From Cycloclasticus sp. (GTDB lineage Bacteria > Pseudomonadota > Gammaproteobacteria > Methylococcales > Cycloclasticaceae), in NCBI GenBank assembly GCA_002700385.1, contig PADC01000008.1:40485-104484 (forward strand): a stretch of DNA of 64,000 bases. Direction: 5' to 3'. This document shows, in pieces, positions 19,031-57,774 of this stretch. Position 1 is the stretch's first letter, and each line of letters begins with the position of its first letter. Position numbers and translations under genes: made by a program. The notes below the pieces were generated by a model. The model had not been told where the DNA came from, made no database searches, and saw nothing but the letters and a program-made list of their open reading frames with translations.

Positions 19031-19249
19031 ATGAAATGGCTCAAAACATCTTATCTGTTCATTGCCGCATTAATTGTCGGTATGCTCAGTTTGTGCTGGC
19101 GCACCCTGCTATTTTTAATTGATCTAGTCGATGGCGGCGATGACGAAAATGATCACGCCCCAACCGACAACATTATTCATTACAACCATCGAAGCGGTGA
19201 GATTGATCCGGTAAAACGTGCTGACGGCCTTTACGACAATAAGTTATAG
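19031..19249 (+). CDS. Small single-pass membrane protein
   Basis: This 72-aa protein has one N-terminal hydrophobic segment (YLFIAALIVGMLSLCW plus TLLFLIDLV) and an acidic tail (DGGDDENDHAPTDN). It starts four bases after the previous gene ends, so the two are co-transcribed, and it is followed at once by a strong hairpin. I do not recognise a family; a small membrane partner of the exported protein upstream is the simplest reading. Confidence 0.5.
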   Translation: MKWLKTSYLFIAALIVGMLSLCWRTLLFLIDLVDGGDDENDHAPTDNIIHYNHRSGEIDPVKRADGLYDNKL

Positions 19250-19251
19250 AA

Positions 19252-19283
19252 AATGCCCGTAAAACCGAAGTTCTACGGGCATT
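19252..19283. terminator. Bidirectional terminator between convergent genes
   Basis: AATGCCCGTA (19252-19261) pairs with TACGGGCATT (19274-19283) around a 12-base loop. It lies between the 3' ends of a plus-strand and a minus-strand gene and has short T-runs on both sides (GGGTTT and TTTTC), so it should stop both. Confidence 0.85.
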
Positions 19284-19295
19284 GGGTTTGATCGA

Positions 19296-19787
19296 CTAAA
19301 GCAATCCTCGCTCAGCAAACGATTCCACTGTCTCATCACCTACTATAAAGTGATCCAGTACCCGGATATCTATCAATGACAAAGCCTCTTTCAGCCGTTG
19401 AGTGATATTTCTATCACTCTGACTGGGCTCAGCCACTCCAGATGGATGATTGTGAGCAAAAATCACTGCAGCAGCATTCACCTGCAAAGCGGCCTTGACC
19501 ACTTCACGGGGGTAAACACTGCAGCCATCAATGGTGCCCGCAAACATTTCCCGATACTCAATCAGCCTATGTTGGCTATCAACAAAAAGACAGATAAATA
19601 CTTCTCGCTGCTGCCCTGCGAGCTGTAAGCGCAGATAGTCGCGTACTTCATGCGGGGAACTAAACACCTGGTCACGGGTTTTCAATCGTGCATAGAGCAA
19701 GTGTTTGGCTTCAGCAATCAGTTGGTTTTCCTGCTCGAATGCCGTTTCGGCGGAATACATTTCATTCGAAGGCTTAACGGTTTTCAT
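19296..19787 (-). CDS. radC: RadC-like JAB-domain protein
   Basis: This 163-aa protein is made up almost wholly of the RadC JAB/MPN domain. AHNHPSG followed by SQSD gives the HxH...D metal triad of JAMM proteins, and the end [18 protein letters not shown] is typical. It is shorter than housekeeping RadC, which has an N-terminal helix-hairpin-helix region of about 60 more residues. Truncated RadC copies are standard in ICEs and plasmids, where their role is unsettled. ATG 19787 has GGGAG seven bases upstream. A 12-bp hairpin stands just in front of the gene. Confidence 0.87.
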
Positions 19788-19822
19788 AATGTGCTCCCAT
19801 AGGAATAGGGAACACACCAGGT

Positions 19823-19850
19823 CCTTATGGGAACGGTGGTTCCCATAAGG
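19823..19850 (-). promoter_or_regulatory. Perfect 12-bp hairpin in the radC leader
   Basis: CCTTATGGGAAC (19823-19834) and GTTCCCATAAGG (19839-19850) form a perfect stem with a 4-base loop, 36 bases upstream of the radC ATG. A similar hairpin stands at 55360-55387 in front of another ICE gene, with the shared core TTCCC-R-TA-R-GG. A leader control element is more likely than a terminator, since no T-run follows on the minus strand. Confidence 0.6.
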
Positions 19851-19900
19851 ATGAAATGGACAGCATATAAGCGTTAGATCAATACTGCCCTGGTGGCGTG

Positions 19901-20374
19901 TTATCCATTTGCAACTTGAGGTGCGCCCTCATGATCATCAAAAGTGCGTTGGTCTTCATAGACCAGTTCACCGTTAATTTTCATGGAGTGAATACGCGTC
20001 AAGAAGCCACCTATCGCAGCCCCCAATTCACCAGCACGTTCACCTTGTTTATAGATGAATGCTTTGGCACGAGGGTTAGCCATATTAAAGCGAATCAGCA
20101 CATTGGCATCCTCGGCTTCGATAGCTTCCCGGTGTTCTAACACAACACCGAGCAAGGTTTCAGACGAAATAACGAGATCATGATATTCATAATGCACGTT
20201 ATCCGCTGGCCCCTGGATAACCGATACTTGAGCTGCATAGCGCTCAGGTTTACCTTCAGCACCGAATTCACGAATGCTGTTCAGATAACCGATGCCATTG
20301 GCATACTCGTTGAAGTACCGATTGTTTTCTGCAGTAGCAGAGGAGGTTTTTGTATTTTCAGTTGGTTTACTCAT
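19901..20374 (-). CDS. STY4534/DUF3577 family ICE replication protein
   Basis: This is a 157-aa protein of the DUF3577 (STY4534) family, found in conjugative islands and annotated as an ICE replication protein; its OB-like strands suggest single-strand DNA binding. The visible signature is [17 protein letters not shown] at the N-terminus, then [36 protein letters not shown] and [20 protein letters not shown]. The start at 20374 is preceded by an AGGAG-like site. The leader upstream carries two hairpins (20422-20453 and 20534-20553) whose arrangement recurs at 55360-55489. Confidence 0.82.
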
Positions 20375-20421
20375 AGCAGTGCTCCTGATTCAATGAGTTG
20401 ATGCGATAAAAAGAGCCGCCG

Positions 20422-20453
20422 ACCCAATGGGGCAACAAGCTCCCAGGTTGGGT
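20422..20453 (-). promoter_or_regulatory. Leader hairpin A of the STY4534 gene
   Basis: ACCCAA (20422-20427) with GGG (20429-20431) pairs with CCC (20442-20444) and TTGGGT (20448-20453), an interrupted stem about 48 bases upstream of the start codon. It lies 81 bases from hairpin B, nearly the same distance as in the 55319 gene leader. Confidence 0.4.
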
Positions 20454-20533
20454 GAGTGAACAAACAGATCATTCAGTATTTCCGTAGAAATAACTGCATA
20501 CCACACCGAAGCGTTGATCCGGGTATGTAAGGT

Positions 20534-20553
20534 GCTATTGAGACAGCAATAGC
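20534..20553 (-). repeat. Short hairpin repeat B, copy 1 of 3
   Basis: GCTATTG-agacag-CAATAGC, a 7-bp stem with a 6-base loop. Further copies stand at 55470-55489 and 57184-57203. The stem is identical in all three and the loop varies slightly (agacag, agactg, aggatg). It lies about 160 bases upstream of the STY4534 gene. Confidence 0.75.
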
Positions 20554-20586
20554 GACTGTTGGTAACTGTTAGGCTGGCTGACAACA

Positions 20587-22143
20587 TCATTTACTTGCCC
20601 CTTTCTTCCCCTTAAAACGCCCTCCTAGTCTGGGATTAATACGCCCCGCCCCGGCTGTGCCACGGGTGATCGCCTGGGTAGCACCATCAAGCTGAGAGGC
20701 GGCTCGAATACCTGCCAAACCGAGATAAACGGATAGCAGTAACGGCAATACCAAATACAACCCACCAGTGAGAAAGTTAAGAATGATCCGCTTGAGCGTG
20801 AGGTCAGTGCTAAACAGCGTGGTCACGCTGCCGGGGTCGGGATAAAACGCCTGAATCAGGTTTTGATCCACCCACCAGGCAAAGAACCAAAGTACTGTCC
20901 AGAACTTCACTGTGAACAAAATCAATGCGCCAATAATCAACAAAGAAAACTTGTAGCGGCTGATTAAGATAAAGAACGGCAACAGCGCGTAGAGTCCCAT
21001 TAGGATCAGCGCTTGCACCATCGGTGCCGCTTCAAGGAATACGCGCAAATAGGCGGCAAAAGACACACTGGTCTTTCCAAGGCCGTAAGCAGCCAGACCT
21101 TGTTGCGCAGCATTCTGCACCGATACCATCACTCCAGGCTCCCCGACGCTGAAATCGACCAGATTCCCATAGGCAAAGTCGTAACCGCGAGTAGTCCAAC
21201 GCGGCGGAGAGTTGATCAATGCAATTTGTATAACCGCATCGCGACGTGGCGCAGGGTCCCACCCCGGTTCAGCGGCAGCAGAGAGTAAATCGAGATCACC
21301 TAGCTCATTAAGAATCGATTGTTGAATGCCTTGCCACCATTCTGTGCAGAATGGCTTTCCATAAACAGGGTTATTAGACGCATCCCACTCTACGTCCCTG
21401 AGGACCGACCAGGGGTATCCTTCCCTGACGGTATCAGCACGGATGCTATCGTAATATCCCGGTATTTCCTGATACACATGCGAGCCAATCCAATCAGGGT
21501 CACTCTCCCCATAACGGTTCAACAATGCAGTGATTGCAACGGTACTGGGCCGTTCGGCCAGGTATTTTGATCGCGCCTCAACGAAACAGTCTCGAAAGAA
21601 ATCGTTGATCTCATGTTGCAAATTAGGGTCTTGAATGGATGCATCGCGCAATTCATCGACATACCCCCGAAAATTCAGCGTGGGCGGTACATCTTCCATC
21701 ACTGCGCGGTTAAAACCCGAACTAAAACTCATCACCGCATACCAGAACACGGGCACATTCACTGTCACCGGTGCGGCATTAAACGAAATGCCTCCCCCAT
21801 AGGTAGTACGTGAGTTATTGACCGTGGCCACTGGCTGCGCAGGCGTCCCAATGACTGCGCGTGGCGTAAACGACAAATCGACAGCATTCAGCGGCGTCGC
21901 CGGCACGGCTGCAATCAGAATCACGAAGAAAGCCACAAAGAATTCCACCTCGACAATACGTAATGTGGTATTGCCCGCTTCTTCGGCATCTTCACCCGCA
22001 TACGAGCGAATAATAGTATCGAGAAGAATACCCAGAAACGGCAGAAACACGATGCCGGTAGCCACCAGCACGTCCCAAATGCTGTTATAAAACAGCCAGC
22101 CAAATAACGTGGTGTAGAGTTCTAGCGTACTATCAACAGCCAT
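20587..22143 (-). CDS. traG: TraG N-terminal-like conjugation membrane protein
   Basis: This is a 518-aa inner-membrane protein of the mating apparatus, like the N-terminal domain of TraG, which in F stabilises mating pairs. Hydrophobic segments stand near residues 10-45 (WDVLVATGIVFLPFLGILLD), 70-85, 375-440 (MVQALILMGLYALLPFFILI) and 470-490, with a large periplasmic part between them. The C-terminus is basic (RLGGRFKGKKGASK). It is the last gene of the TIGR03757-56-55 run on the minus strand, the usual place for this component in G-type ICE systems. The periplasmic C-terminal domain of F TraG is absent. Confidence 0.8.
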   Translation of the reverse strand: MAVDSTLELYTTLFGWLFYNSIWDVLVATGIVFLPFLGILLDTIIRSYAGEDAEEAGNTTLRIVEVEFFVAFFVILIAAVPATPLNAVDLSFTPRAVIGTPAQPVATVNNSRTTYGGGISFNAAPVTVNVPVFWYAVMSFSSGFNRAVMEDVPPTLNFRGYVDELRDASIQDPNLQHEINDFFRDCFVEARSKYLAERPSTVAITALLNRYGESDPDWIGSHVYQEIPGYYDSIRADTVREGYPWSVLRDVEWDASNNPVYGKPFCTEWWQGIQQSILNELGDLDLLSAAAEPGWDPAPRRDAVIQIALINSPPRWTTRGYDFAYGNLVDFSVGEPGVMVSVQNAAQQGLAAYGLGKTSVSFAAYLRVFLEAAPMVQALILMGLYALLPFFILISRYKFSLLIIGALILFTVKFWTVLWFFAWWVDQNLIQAFYPDPGSVTTLFSTDLTLKRIILNFLTGGLYLVLPLLLSVYLGLAGIRAASQLDGATQAITRGTAGAGRINPRLGGRFKGKKGASK

Positions 22144-25340: not shown

Positions 25341-25562
25341 GCTCTAATCTCACACATAGGCTCAGTTGGCTCTATGGTTAATCAGCAGACGAAATAGAGC
25401 GATAGAAAAGCTTTCATGCTGAAAAGTAAGATATTTGGAGACTTAGTGGTGCTTTTCCGGGAATTAGATCAGGAAGCCGTCCAATGAGTACCACCTCGAC
25501 AAATGACCGGCGGGAATAACTACGCCAAGTATCGTAACTATGAATATCGAATACAACTCAGC

Positions 25563-25593
25563 TTGACTCTATAGCTACTATAGACATTACAAT
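25563..25593 (+). promoter_or_regulatory. PbrR-type promoter/operator of pbrT
   Basis: TTGACT (25563-25568) and TACAAT (25588-25593) are 19 bases apart, the spacing of MerR-family targets. The spacer has CTATAG-cta-CTATAG, matching the published PbrR operator style (TTGACTCTATAG...). It is nearly identical to the site at 28039-28069. Confidence 0.88.
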
Positions 25594-28022: not shown

Positions 28023-28038
28023 CCTTCTTCCTCAAAGC

Positions 28039-28069
28039 TTGACTCTATAGTTACTATAGAGTTTAAACT
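28039..28069 (+). promoter_or_regulatory. PbrR-type promoter/operator of the CDF gene and pbrR
   Basis: TTGACT (28039-28044) and TAAACT (28064-28069) stand 19 bases apart around the perfect dyad ACTCTATAG-tta-CTATAGAGT (28042-28062). It lies in the divergent region between pbrR (start 28022) and the CDF gene (start 28100) and closely matches the known PbrR operator. Confidence 0.92.
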
Positions 28070-53962: not shown

Positions 53963-54801
53963 GGTGTCACCTCACGCTGAATCCATAGACGGTAGTGCTC
54001 GTCAACGAGCTGGCTTGCTTCAAATGCAGTTGGCAACGTTTCAGGATTAACAGGCGGGGTATTCAGCATTTTCCCTGCCAATAAATGATTCATGTTTTCA
54101 TTAGCAAACGCATGGGGATTCGCACGAAAGAGGTAAACCAACACCTGGTCGATTGTCATACCCGTAAGATTAAGCTGACTGGCGATGTGACTTAAACTAT
54201 CGCCCCGCTGCACCGGCCCGTAGGTTTGATGTTCTTGCTGTACCACCGAAATTACCCCTGGCTCTTTCGGTGGCAGCGAGGTTATTTCCTTCTGATCAAG
54301 CCACTCTTGTTTGGCGACCTCCATCTCTTCAGCAGTAGCGAATTGGCCAAACCCCTCACGCAACTGATAGCGCACTGAGCGCTTAACTGGATTGATTAGA
54401 GGTCGAAAACTTTTCCCGCCCAGGGTGATCAACGCATCCATTAACGTCATCGACTCCAATTTCCGATGCGGTTCGGGAAGTGTCAAGACCAACAGAAGGT
54501 ACTGCTCATCGACTTCTGGCTGTTCATCTACCTCATGAGAGACGTCCAATTGAAACCCATAGGGTCTCAACAGGTAGTCCAGCGCCCCTCCTACTGTGGT
54601 AATTTGCTCAGGTACTTGTATATCGATGATGCTTTTCAGCAAGTCGGTTTGTGCATCCTCAGGACCCACCTGGGCAGAAATATAGCGACTCTCAAGAATA
54701 CGACTATCCGTCGTGTCCGTAGTGTTTGCCTGCACCGTCAATGGAAGAGCGAATATCATCGTCAGTATCGCCACCCACCTGCCAATCACTGTCTCTCGCA
54801 T
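53959..54801 (-). CDS. PilL-like pilus protein of PFGI-1-type ICE (TIGR03748)
   Basis: This is a 280-aa exported protein: signal peptide (WVAILTMIFALPLTVQA), a PilL-type N-terminal domain (YISAQVGPEDAQTDLLKSII and GALDYLLRPYGFQLDV), and a LysM/FimV-like region (GPVQRGDSLSHIASQLNL). In PFGI-1-type islands it belongs to a type IV pilus used for mating, but no other pilus gene is present here. ATG 54801 is preferred over 54813 because of the GGTGG upstream; the difference is four residues. First gene of the operon that runs to the TIGR03747 gene. Confidence 0.8.
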   Translation of the reverse strand: MRETVIGRWVAILTMIFALPLTVQANTTDTTDSRILESRYISAQVGPEDAQTDLLKSIIDIQVPEQITTVGGALDYLLRPYGFQLDVSHEVDEQPEVDEQYLLLVLTLPEPHRKLESMTLMDALITLGGKSFRPLINPVKRSVRYQLREGFGQFATAEEMEVAKQEWLDQKEITSLPPKEPGVISVVQQEHQTYGPVQRGDSLSHIASQLNLTGMTIDQVLVYLFRANPHAFANENMNHLLAGKMLNTPPVNPETLPTAFEASQLVDEHYRLWIQREVTP

Positions 54802-54940
54802 GAATACCACCATTCATCCAATCATTAAAAACGGTCACCAGATTAGTGATGGCAGCTTGCTAGTGGCAGCAAAAAGCTTTCATGGACAAAAGAAAGAATA
54901 GGATTGATCGATTTTCGAGAAGTGAAGGGGAAATAAAAAT

Positions 54941-54972
54941 GATAAAGGCCTGACGGGAGTCAGACCTTTATC
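54941..54972 (-). terminator. Terminator after the 54978-55319 gene
   Basis: GATAAAGGCCTGAC (54941-54954) and GTCAGaCCTTTATC (54959-54972) pair at 13 of 14 positions around a GGGA loop. On the minus strand it is followed by ATTTTTATTT, a good T-run, so it ends the small gene just upstream. Confidence 0.85.
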
Positions 54973-54977
54973 GTGGG

Positions 54978-55319
54978 TTACTGGGCAAAGGCCAGTTGAT
55001 CATTAACTTCTAGTCGCATACCCGGTGTTGGCTGCCAGTGCTTCAGTACTACGAGGGTTTCCCACCGTACACTTGAGACACCTATCATCGACGTTTCTGT
55101 CAACTGACCTTGCAGCTGTGTTAACAACGCACGGGTACTGTAACTTTCTGAGATTGTGCCTTCGGCACTGATACTCAGAGTATTTTCCTCAATGCCTATA
55201 TCGATATAGCCTGCATCGACAAACTCAGTTTCTCGCAACTTGCTGAGAACGGATCGCACGACGGCTTTATCGGCATCTGCTTTGAGTTTTACTGCACCTC
55301 GCATTTCCAGGTACTCCAT
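54978..55319 (-). CDS. Hypothetical ICE protein
   Basis: I do not recognise this family. The product is 113 aa, soluble and alternates strands and helices: VKLKADADKAVVRSVLSKL, GYIDIGIEENTLSISAEG and SVRWETLVVLKHW. ATG 55319 is chosen because GAGGAG lies seven bases before it. It stands alone between a terminator and a leader with two hairpins of the STY4534 type, so it is probably expressed by the same control. It could be a small regulator or nucleic-acid binder. Confidence 0.5.
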   Translation of the reverse strand: MEYLEMRGAVKLKADADKAVVRSVLSKLRETEFVDAGYIDIGIEENTLSISAEGTISESYSTRALLTQLQGQLTETSMIGVSSVRWETLVVLKHWQPTPGMRLEVNDQLAFAQ

Positions 55320-55359
55320 CATCTTTCTCCTCATCATTGAATGAACAAGAGAAAGATGT

Positions 55360-55387
55360 CCCTACGGGAAATCATTCTCCCGTAGGG
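55360..55387 (-). promoter_or_regulatory. Leader hairpin A of the 55319 gene
   Basis: CCCTACGGG (55360-55368) and CCCGTAGGG (55379-55387) form a perfect 9-bp stem with a 10-base loop, 41 bases upstream of the ATG at 55319. It resembles the 12-bp stem before radC (19823-19850), sharing TTCCC-R-TA-R-GG. Confidence 0.55.
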
Positions 55388-55469
55388 GTGGTATAACTGG
55401 CTAACGTATCAGCGGTTGCTTGCAACGTTTTCGAGCCATACCGATTGATTGGCAGCGTAACTGCCGGGT

Positions 55470-55489
55470 GCTATTGAGACTGCAATAGC
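55470..55489 (-). repeat. Short hairpin repeat B, copy 2 of 3
   Basis: GCTATTG-agactg-CAATAGC, stem identical to copies 1 and 3. It lies 82 bases beyond hairpin A, as in the STY4534 leader. Flanking sequence is also partly shared: CATACC upstream and GGTGCTATTGAG around the stem. Confidence 0.75.
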
Positions 55490-55680
55490 CACAGTGTGAT
55501 TCATCATGAGGATTCAGCGTCAAGGAGGAACGCAGGCGTTAGCCGAGTAGTCCTTGATGTGCCGATCCTTTTTATCCTTTCAAAGGGGTTGTAGCTATGC
55601 TGCAACCCCTGCTACCGGCGAGGGCGGGAAGGCCCAGCGGCCAGGGCAGCGCCCGTTGAGCGTAATTCCCTAATCATTGC
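55490..55680. other. Non-coding stretch with hairpin, end of recombinase gene
   Basis: AGGGGTTG (55584-55591) and CAACCCCT (55603-55610) form an 8-bp stem downstream of the minus-strand recombinase gene and may terminate it. The remaining bases, including a G/C-rich patch at 55615-55660, contain no gene I can support. Confidence 0.4.
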
Positions 55681-56547
55681 TTACCTTCCTAAATAGACCG
55701 CCGTGATTTGCTCACGCTCATGACCGAGCTCCTGAGAAATCGCCCAGCGGGCTACCTGATCATTCGCGCGTTCTTCTTCAGTGAGTTCACTGCGTGTTGG
55801 GCCACCACAGGCCGGGGCCTGCTTTCCGGTGAGTTCGTAATATCGATCTTGCGCATAGCGGTGACGCAAACCGTGCAACTTGGATAGCCCTGCCTTTTGT
55901 GTCTCACGTTCATAGAGGCGCATTTGCTGAACATACATCAGGTGGGGTGGAATCAATGAACCTTTCCCTGCTACCAATCGCGCGCGTCTTAAAACATCCC
56001 GCTGCTCATCGGTACGTATAGGGATTTCCCGTGCCCGCCCTCCTTTACACCAGGTAGATTTCAGACGAATGTAGGTATTTCGGTCTGCGTAATCCGGACT
56101 GAACTTGATCGCTTCTTCCCGCCTCAGGCCAAAGGCTTTTTGAAGTTCCAGACTGATTCTTAAATGCGGATCGCTGATTTTTTCAAGCAGCTCCTGATCC
56201 AGGTCACGCGCTTTCGACACGTTAGTAACAAAGACCCGAGAGTCAATGCCGTAATAGGCATTGTCCTTAGCCACGACATTTTGCTTACCGATTTTTTCAG
56301 CCCACCACCGCAATGCGGCGAGACGATTTTTTATCGTGCCGGGAGTCAGCCCTTCTTCGAGATATTTGGCGACCAACGCATCAACATGCTTGGGTTTGAG
56401 AGATTTCGCCTCCATGCGTCGATAGCCCAATTCATTGAGATGATTGGCCATCGTTTGTAATAACTGAAAACGTTCAGCTTGTGTGGCACGACTGCCATCC
56501 TGATTGCGCTGACACAATTCCTTTAATTGATAATTGACATCCTTCAC
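55681..56547 (-). CDS. Second tyrosine recombinase, ICE accessory integrase
   Basis: This is a 288-aa tyrosine recombinase-like protein. An N-terminal SAM-like region (LKPKHVDALVAKYLEEGLTP) precedes the catalytic domain: Arg in KAFGLRREEAIKF, LHGLRHRYAQ and LGHEREQITAVYLGR, with the nucleophile Tyr285 near the C-terminus. The catalytic R-HxxR-H-Y set is present. GTG 56547 follows GAGGAG by six bases; the frame is open further upstream but without a ribosome site. In related ICEs a similar integrase-domain protein sits far from the true integrase and may resolve dimers or serve another site. Confidence 0.78.
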   Translation of the reverse strand: MKDVNYQLKELCQRNQDGSRATQAERFQLLQTMANHLNELGYRRMEAKSLKPKHVDALVAKYLEEGLTPGTIKNRLAALRWWAEKIGKQNVVAKDNAYYGIDSRVFVTNVSKARDLDQELLEKISDPHLRISLELQKAFGLRREEAIKFSPDYADRNTYIRLKSTWCKGGRAREIPIRTDEQRDVLRRARLVAGKGSLIPPHLMYVQQMRLYERETQKAGLSKLHGLRHRYAQDRYYELTGKQAPACGGPTRSELTEEERANDQVARWAISQELGHEREQITAVYLGR

Positions 56548-56811
56548 AGACAACTCCTCGTCGAGAAATAAAGCGTGATTGCATTCTCTGTAAATTCGTC
56601 GTGCTGAGTCGTTAGTAAACCTTTCAAGGCCGCAGGAAATAATCTTCAAGGATTTACTAATGCATCTACCTGATGCCAGAAGCAGGCAGCCATGCGGAAC
56701 AGGCATTGAATCTAGGAAATTCTGCCAAAGGTTAGTGGATCGTGCGTTACAGATAGTTTCGTTAGATTGTCTAATCGTTCCGGTCAGGTTTGTTGTCCGT
56801 TCCTTACCTGG

Positions 56812-56876
56812 GACGACTGTTCTGAACGGACAAGTTGCCCTATGGAACAGACGTGCGACCGTTCAGAACAGTCGTC
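56812..56876. repeat. 18-bp perfect inverted repeat, possible oriT/ori element
   Basis: GACGACTGTTCTGAACGG (56812-56829) and CCGTTCAGAACAGTCGTC (56859-56876) are perfect inverted copies around 29 bases. A transcription terminator is unlikely, as the loop is long and no T-run follows. Origins of transfer and recombination sites commonly have such dyads. Confidence 0.55.
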
Positions 56877-57183
56877 TTCAAGCTGGAACAGTGCGGTGTT
56901 AAAGTTTTGGTCAGTGTTTATGACTGTCCAGCCACCACAGTGGATGGAGAAGCAATTTCAATAACGGATTGCTAACGTCACGGGACACCACTCCCACAAA
57001 ACCTGAATAGCGGCATAACCAACAATGCCAATTCCCGGATGGGTACGACAGGGTTTCGTTTTCACGCTTTAGACAGTACTACTACTTTCATTTTTCTTTT
57101 GCCGGGTATTTCTCCTCTGTTAAGTGATAAGCCACTCATCGCGGTTGCGTGAGTCAGCTTGAAAAGCCCTTTCGAGCCGGTTT

Positions 57184-57203
57184 GCTATTGAGGATGCAAT
57201 AGC
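57184..57203. repeat. Short hairpin repeat B, copy 3 of 3
   Basis: GCTATTG-aggatg-CAATAGC, same stem as the copies at 20534 and 55470. No minus-strand gene starts at the expected distance on its left; the nearest is the recombinase start 640 bases away, so this copy may mark a lost gene or serve a different role. Confidence 0.65.
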
Positions 57204-57317
57204 CACATATGGAATCTGTATTATCAGTGAATTGAGCGATAAGCACCCTGATAATGCTTTCGTCATGTCAGGAATTTTTATTGAGTCCTGTTTTCATGGG
57301 GGCTAGCGATTCATCGC

Positions 57318-57356
57318 ACCCCACGTCACTGCATTTATTTTGCAGTGACGTGGGGT
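57318..57356. repeat. 16-bp perfect inverted repeat
   Basis: ACCCCACGTCACTGCA (57318-57333) and TGCAGTGACGTGGGGT (57341-57356) flank a 7-base T-rich loop, giving a very stable hairpin. It lacks a following T-run on either strand, so terminator function is doubtful. Confidence 0.6.
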
Positions 57357-57493
57357 ACTAAATCCGATGAAAACTCTATCTCAACAGATAGCGCTCATGC
57401 TCGAAATATATTTCTTTATGGACTGAAACAAAAAGTGTGACTATCGACTAACCATACCGCTAATGTGCTCGTGACTCTTTCGGAAACCAAAAC

Positions 57494-57718
57494 ATGAACG
57501 ACACCACAGCGGCTATTGATGACCGCGAACTCACTACCAAAGAGGCGGCCACCCTACTCGGCTTGTCGCCTAGCACACTGAGAAAATGGCGCTGTACTGG
57601 AGAGCGCCCAGAATTACCCTGGTGTAAGCGGTTTCGCAAAGTTTTCTATCTGGAATCTGAGGTCATTCTTTTCAAGGAAAAAAACACCACATCCAATTGC
57701 GAAGAAACTTATGTCTAG
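57494..57718 (+). CDS. AlpA/excisionase-like helix-turn-helix protein
   Basis: This 74-aa small DNA-binding protein has a MerR/excisionase-type helix-turn-helix: ELTTKEAATLLGLSPSTLRK, then WRCTGERPELPWCKR and VFYLESEVILF. These proteins act as recombination directionality factors or activators of integrase in ICEs and prophages. It is transcribed away from the integrase side, on the plus strand, and starts about 140 bases beyond the 16-bp inverted repeat. Role as the excisionase is inferred from family and location. Confidence 0.72.
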   Translation: MNDTTAAIDDRELTTKEAATLLGLSPSTLRKWRCTGERPELPWCKRFRKVFYLESEVILFKEKNTTSNCEETYV

Positions 57719-57774
57719 CCGTTATTTCAACAATTCTGAAGATACTCTGTTTTAAATCTGTTGGCGTTTTCCGG

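Follow-up and report, generated by a model that had tools for sequence, protein, structure and literature searches.

The STAXI RNA, a pseudoknot repeated two or three times, has been described near ssb, topoisomerase, antirestriction and integrase genes, and the radC RNA appears in a table of the same work by Weinberg et al. (PMC2864571). One published method had earlier singled out radC as lacking covarying pairs (PMC7657543). Folded elements also precede leading-region genes of plasmids (PMC11541004, PMC9849209), and in Frpo it is the transferred (template) strand that folds and rebuilds the -35 and -10 boxes (PMC9849209). Control of ICEclc has been studied at its promoters, which have a common motif, and additional post-transcriptional control is suspected (PMC9286271). 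Among the open papers listed, a minority of those that matched, none was on the class of leaders described here, as judged by titles and the starts of abstracts.

The window, the whole stretch of 64,000 nucleotides of Cycloclasticus sp. DNA that was analyzed, is like the Frpo/ssi systems in having a conserved folded sequence before conjugative-element genes. To judge from sequence comparison, three sites in it are probably copies of one structured cis-acting RNA element in ICE transcripts, with the likely role of controlling gene expression. The element appears to belong to a wide and mostly unlisted family whose design is similar to that of the radC RNA, and the window copies match neither radC nor STAXI. 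A sequence-only reading of the window had proposed that two distant genes share a leader; this was borne out, and a third copy of the shared hairpin (57184-57203) had been missed.

That hairpin, P1 (exact form GCTATTG-N6-CAATAGC), has three copies in the genome (2,516,899 bases), all of them within the window and its ICE and in one orientation, and the reversed control pattern has no match in the genome. A longer form, GTGCTATTG-N5-GCAATAGC, has two matches versus 0.00 in shuffles. A chance hairpin as the account of P1 is ruled out by the shuffles and the genome-wide count. Among 101 genomes of the order, exact P1 is present in nine, with three copies each in the window genome and the congener G384 and one each in seven others, in whose matches the family loop is absent by inspection; the reversed control gives three single matches in the 101. 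In ten genomes reached through close DUF3577 relatives, together with G384, P1 is found at least once in 11 of 11, as expected for loci that were chosen already carrying it, and at least twice in 8 of 11. The reversed control has one match in each of two of these 11 genomes, and one extra P1 copy in G470 has an unlike loop. Random positioning, which the sequence-only reading had named as the contrary outcome, is not what is seen, as P1 lies in the same place upstream of the start in all ten close DUF3577 leaders. Because these searches used the exact pattern, they could not have shown any variation in P1. Within an element P1 is identical in three of three copies in the window, three of four in L068, two of two in L060 and two of three in L113 (partly). 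The notion that P1 is always the same within one element was rejected, since P1 varies between copies of the same element in L050, L052, L056 and L189.

The components of site 1 are as follows.

20534-20553, minus strand: P1 of site 1 (hairpin B of the sequence-only reading), before DUF3577; invariant in eight aligned sequences
20497-20527, minus strand: P2 (CAUACC/GGUAUG, arms 20522-20527 and 20497-20502), with compensatory changes
20515-20520, minus strand: pseudoknot strand GGAUCA in the P2 loop, beside an inner hairpin
20474-20496, minus strand: P3 hairpin, with compensatory changes
20466-20471, minus strand: pseudoknot partner UGAUCU, 97.9% of cells paired; the homologous pairing covaries in other ICEs
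20422-20453, minus strand: P4, an interrupted stem (hairpin A of the sequence-only reading), in the same place in relatives
20381-20416, minus strand: weak pairing of the ribosome-binding site (AGGAGC/GCUCUU), score 5.5
19901-20374, minus strand: DUF3577 / STY4534-family ICE gene, with DUF3577 over its cut-off

The order in the minus-strand RNA is P1 (20553-20534), P2, P3, UGAUCU and P4, and GGAUCA in the P2 loop can pair with UGAUC 3' of P3 to form a pseudoknot. The DUF3577 unit is a pseudoknotted element, in contrast to the two separate hairpins described before. The P4 score at this site is 5.5, the stem being interrupted, and the STY4534_fam profile gives the DUF3577 gene 84 bits, under its cut-off of 160. 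In alignment A4, which comprises the window and seven relatives and omits L037 and L038 as identical to L036 and L044 as close to L043, 97.7% of the cells in 32 pairs are paired versus 23-44% with partners slid by one to three columns, a comparison that favors the unslid structure because the helices were hand-placed from the same sequences. Eight of the 32 pairs are changed on both sides (two in P2, two in the inner hairpin, three in P3 and one in the pseudoknot), and P1 has no changes in these eight sequences. The conserved structured element at site 1 is very probably real.

The same design is seen by inspection in many DUF3577 leaders of other ICEs. Of 369 genomes of the class, 20 have a DUF3577 match, counting the genome that the window comes from, and the DUF3577 genes in named contigs considered here are the best 80 of 208 relatives. 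In L036-L040, contigs filed under very different taxa and mostly MAGs, DUF3577 is 97-98% identical, a near-identity that may reflect wide transfer or mis-binning. Alignment A3 consists of 25 of 46 pattern matches, with near-duplicates, chance matches and longer forms excluded. Over its 19 pairs (P1, P2 and the pseudoknot; P3 is unaligned and uncounted) 97.8% of the cells are paired versus 30-48% when slid, with P2 out of register in four rows and the pseudoknot in three (L068), and both-side changes occur in 11 of the 19 pairs, including four of six in the pseudoknot. A covariance model, R1, was built from A3 without the window sequence and with only P1 and P2 as pairs. With filters off, its top three matches in the window are the three sites, at rough E-values of 0.0017, 0.011 and 0.025, and the fourth match has an E-value of 1.1. 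Over 73 sources R1 gave 69 matches at E <= 0.3, the weakest of them probably in part due to chance; window sites 2 and 3 passed this cut, window site 1 fell below it, and site 1 of the relatives L036, L041 and L042 passed. In the model-fitted alignment of 67 distinct rows, whose fitting leans toward the structure, 98.8% of the cells are paired versus 27-53% when slid, and all 13 pairs are changed on both sides, including all seven of P1. The sequence-only reading had proposed a covariance search of related ICEs and had named compensatory changes in the stems as support for RNA structure: such changes are present in A4, A3 and the model-fitted alignment, and the model made from other ICEs puts the window sites first.

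Across the 369 genomes of the class, R1 has a match at E <= 0.01 in 24 and below 1e-5 in 17, and DUF3577 was found in 11 of these 17 and not shown in the other six. Nothing at E <= 1 was returned from the window's own whole genome; as R1 missed this genome in whole-genome searches, the R1 counts are probably lower bounds. The window sites are very probably related to the R1 class, with which they share P1, P2, the pseudoknot (in the window, at site 1) and the place before DUF3577 and integrase genes. They differ in that the P1 of the R1 class is of the GTGG-xCACTG-CGG type, unlike the window P1 sequence, and in that the window P2 contains an inner hairpin. No Rfam match was found for R1-class leaders in the loci scanned. 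R1-type copies also stand before an integrase resembling the window's by inspection (L050, L052, L053, L056, L063) and before radC (L113, L187, L188). The genes behind other copies we take to be DUF932 (L087, L189) and a methyltransferase-like gene (L068), and in L187 presumably DUF3275-like and SNF2-like genes. Near the ICE copies of L113 there is a cobalamin riboswitch match (L113:8038-8256, 116.5 bits).

The other two sites, radC and their genes in the window comprise the following features.

55470-55489, minus strand: P1 of site 2, before the 114-aa gene; R1 match 55400-55493, E 0.0017
55451-55465, minus strand: small hairpin P1b of site 2, seen in four sequences
55360-55387, minus strand: P4 hairpin of site 2, 12 pairs (hairpin A of the sequence-only reading)
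55320-55358, minus strand: perfect 10-bp hairpin CAUCUUUCUC/GAGAAAGAUG (arms 55349-55358 and 55320-55329), read from the sequence
54978-55322, minus strand: gene for a 114-aa protein, start 55319 or 55322
54941-54972, minus strand: terminator-like stem of 14 pairs, T-rich in its tail, lying between pilL and the 114-aa gene
57184-57203, minus strand: P1 of site 3, upstream of the integrase gene; R1 match 57123-57207, E 0.011
55681-56706, minus strand: integrase (Phage_int_SAM_2, Integrase_1), by profile matches
19296-19787, minus strand: radC, likely start 19787, by profile matches
19823-19850, minus strand: P4-type hairpin before radC, 13 pairs
19788-19818, minus strand: hairpin over the radC ribosome-binding site, 11 pairs (three G-U)

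The hairpins first described by the sequence-only reading were confirmed in coordinates and sequence, with the GCTATTG hairpin exact at 20534-20553 and 55470-55489. Its spacings also hold, being 48 nt from start to hairpin A for DUF3577 (start 20374), 41 nt from 55319 or 38 nt from 55322 for the second gene, and 80 and 82 nt from A to B, and radC indeed has only the A type (19823-19850). Of the three genes with P1, the DUF3577 ICE gene and the integrase look like core genes, not like the ICE accessory genes of which that reading spoke. At site 2, the CAUCUUUCUC/GAGAAAGAUG hairpin covers the ribosome-binding site and start codon of the gene, for whose 114-aa product profile searches gave no family match. 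No convincing pseudoknot was found at sites 2 and 3. The P4 of site 2 was flagged as terminator-like and rejected as a terminator, the scan total being 2 versus a shuffle mean of 3.0. The 114-aa gene was likewise rejected as the head of the pilL cluster, from which the strong terminator-like stem at 54941-54972 parts it.

Several other features of the window were recorded. Between the integrase gene and site 3 there is a long inverted repeat (GACGACTGTTCTGAACGG and its complement, 56811-56877), possibly a recombinase or attachment site, and a near-perfect hairpin around GCAGTGACGTGGGGT (57304-57371) lies between site 3 and an excisionase-like gene. In the site 3 leader (57060-57110), a ribosome-binding-site-like AGGAG is followed in the relatives L133 and L139 by a 13-codon frame; the window is without the ATG of this frame. 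A 30-nt repeat, AGCTTGACTCTATAG, occurs at 25560-25589 and 28036-28065 with 90% identity, its first copy before an iron-permease gene, and presumably resembles a metal-regulator operator.

A scan of the whole window at Rfam gathering thresholds assigned the copies to no known family, with no match to the radC RNA (RF01754) or the STAXI RNA (RF01728). At E-values up to 10 there was no match in 19700-20700 and seven in 55300-57500, none of them radC or STAXI; these seven, to eukaryotic miRNA, snoRNA or lncRNA families and far short of the respective thresholds, were discarded. No DNA similar to 19801-20600 was found in plasmids, nor any similar to 54970-57720 in E. coli genomes. In other ICEs, both known RNAs occupy the position of the element. 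The DUF3577 leader is the Rfam radC RNA in one of 19 loci scanned (L004, 131.7 bits) and in ICEclc-type elements, and in another scan, of 13 loci, L069 holds three radC RNAs, one of them as DUF3577 leader. A Providencia contig in that same scan has a STAXI RNA as its DUF3577 leader (L083:7640-7800, 121 bits). That radC and STAXI RNAs are found in the same place counts in favor of a cis-acting RNA element.

The radC-type leaders were collected in a set, A6, of 24 pattern finds and two added by hand, leaders missed by the pattern being left out. These 26 leaders can form two tandem pseudoknots, GAUC/GAUC with 100% and GGCAUC/GAUGCC with 96% of cells paired. Both-side changes affect a single pair of each (in three sequences and in one, respectively), and overall 98.1% of cells are paired versus 20-45% when slid. 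The stem GUUCGC/GCGAAC hardly varies and therefore gives no covariation support. Neither the two pseudoknots nor this stem is present in the Rfam radC structure line. The radC RNA is like window site 1 in its succession of a hairpin, a GAUC-loop hairpin, a hairpin and GAUC. However, radC-type leaders have two modules in tandem and window site 1 has one, the second module (GUUCGC/GCGAAC with GGCAUC/GAUGCC) being absent by inspection from the window leaders. STAXI is built of repeated units with, by our reading of its consensus, the pseudoknot partner upstream of the hairpin, whereas the window partner follows P3. Two or three STAXI-like pseudoknot repeats were not found at window site 1, which has one module only. 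In view of the position of its partner, STAXI is a positional and architectural analogue and not a proven homologue.

The element would act on mRNA. In the named helices, G-U pairs outnumber A-C by 28 to 8 column types (two-sided binomial about 0.001, with types taken as independent) and by 56 to 9 cells, an excess that favors the mRNA strand. In contrast, energies of whole segments, calculated without the pseudoknot, are lower for that strand in no more than 10 of 25, 0 of 8 and 2 of 26 sequences, which counts against it. Of 49 leaders, 37 reach a score of 7 or more for the hairpin over the ribosome-binding site, versus 11.5% of mononucleotide shuffles, and 22 reach 8 or more for a P4-like hairpin, versus 4.6%; the 49 were taken from 81 leaders, leaving out near-duplicates, five without an SD at the chosen start, and L115. 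Under a stricter rule on the letters that the helix must cover, 7 of the 49 score at least 8. Under the strict rule, and with genes called crudely, a score of at least 7 is reached by 20% of 30 ICE genes versus 8% of 134 chromosomal controls. In the window the hairpin over the ribosome-binding site is strong at site 2 and radC and weak at DUF3577. No sigma-70-like site was found on the minus strand in scans of 54800-57400 and 19200-20900. The sequence-only reading had left the choice between post-transcriptional and promoter control; because the wobbles lie mostly on the mRNA strand, ribosome-binding-site hairpins are frequent and sigma-70-like sites were not found in the two stretches scanned, the post-transcriptional half is favored over the promoter half, with control of expression itself being inferred.

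The strongest competitor of the cis-acting RNA element, rather unlikely in our estimation, is an element for processing or read-through, in which arrays are transcribed past terminators and the RNA either undergoes cleavage, of which RNase III acting on a long hairpin called P0 would be an example, or causes polymerase to ignore terminators, with P1-P3 and the pseudoknot as part of the signal. In 16 array copies, which were chosen by hand and are not all copies, the folds 5' of P1 comprise a terminator-like stem, P0, or both. P0, with 15-22 pairs in the folded stretch, was noted upstream of P1 in L013, L068, L070, L113, L164, L185, L187, L188 and L189, and its 5' arm begins within the tail that follows the previous gene's terminator-like stem. 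In the P0 stretch alone there are 54 G-U on the mRNA strand versus 8 on the other, and the mRNA strand is the more stable in 15 of 16. The start in the terminator tail and the mRNA-strand wobbles suggest an RNA that reads through the terminator, and hence processing or antitermination; moreover, P1 of site 1 begins 33 nt after the stop codon of the TraG_N gene, which leaves little room for a promoter. P0 was, however, seen in the arrays of other ICEs and is not established in the window.

Two explanations at the level of DNA fare worse. That P1 is a palindromic site for an ICE regulator, within a double-stranded operator or promoter, would suit its palindromic form, its invariance in eight sequences and the conserved bases before it in other ICEs, where the CGTGG of P1 is immediately preceded by TTT[CT]A[AT]C (37 distinct pattern matches, at least two by chance, nearly all in other ICEs); this flank was not seen at the window sites. 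An operator is nevertheless improbable, as it would not be expected to show covarying P2, P3 and pseudoknot or a direction of the wobbles, and both scanned stretches are without a sigma-70-like minus-strand site. Still less probable is a Frpo-like promoter of single-stranded DNA that would work on entry of the strand into the recipient. Some of the genes served, such as radC and the methyltransferase-like gene, resemble genes expressed early in recipients, plasmid leading-region genes do have folded elements before them (PMC11541004, PMC9849209), and the energies without the pseudoknot do not speak against it. But the strand transferred is the template, so the antisense strand should fold, yet the wobbles favor the sense strand. 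For -35 and -10 boxes in the stems, the coverage is that of the plain sigma-70 scans, with no minus-strand site.

Returning to a cis-acting element in the RNA, action in translation is tentatively its most likely mode, because the ribosome-binding site is often sequestered. In the favored, though tentative, scheme a protein or RNA encoded by the ICE, or a ligand, would bind the P1-P3-pseudoknot domain and thereby open or close the downstream P4 and ribosome-binding-site hairpins. The outcome would be joint production of DUF3577, the integrase and the 114-aa protein upon activation of the element. A bolder and rather doubtful extension is that one RNA superfamily, with the radC and STAXI RNAs as branches, runs an RNA-level regulon, in which a factor of the element reads each P1 and read-through RNA is cut or antiterminated and translated only on activation.

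Through these comparisons two orphan RNA motifs, radC and STAXI, gain a common setting before the same ICE gene, and a larger class with a covarying pseudoknot, without an Rfam match in the loci scanned, is added to them. Concrete and mutable elements are thereby named with which post-transcriptional control of ICEs may be tested.
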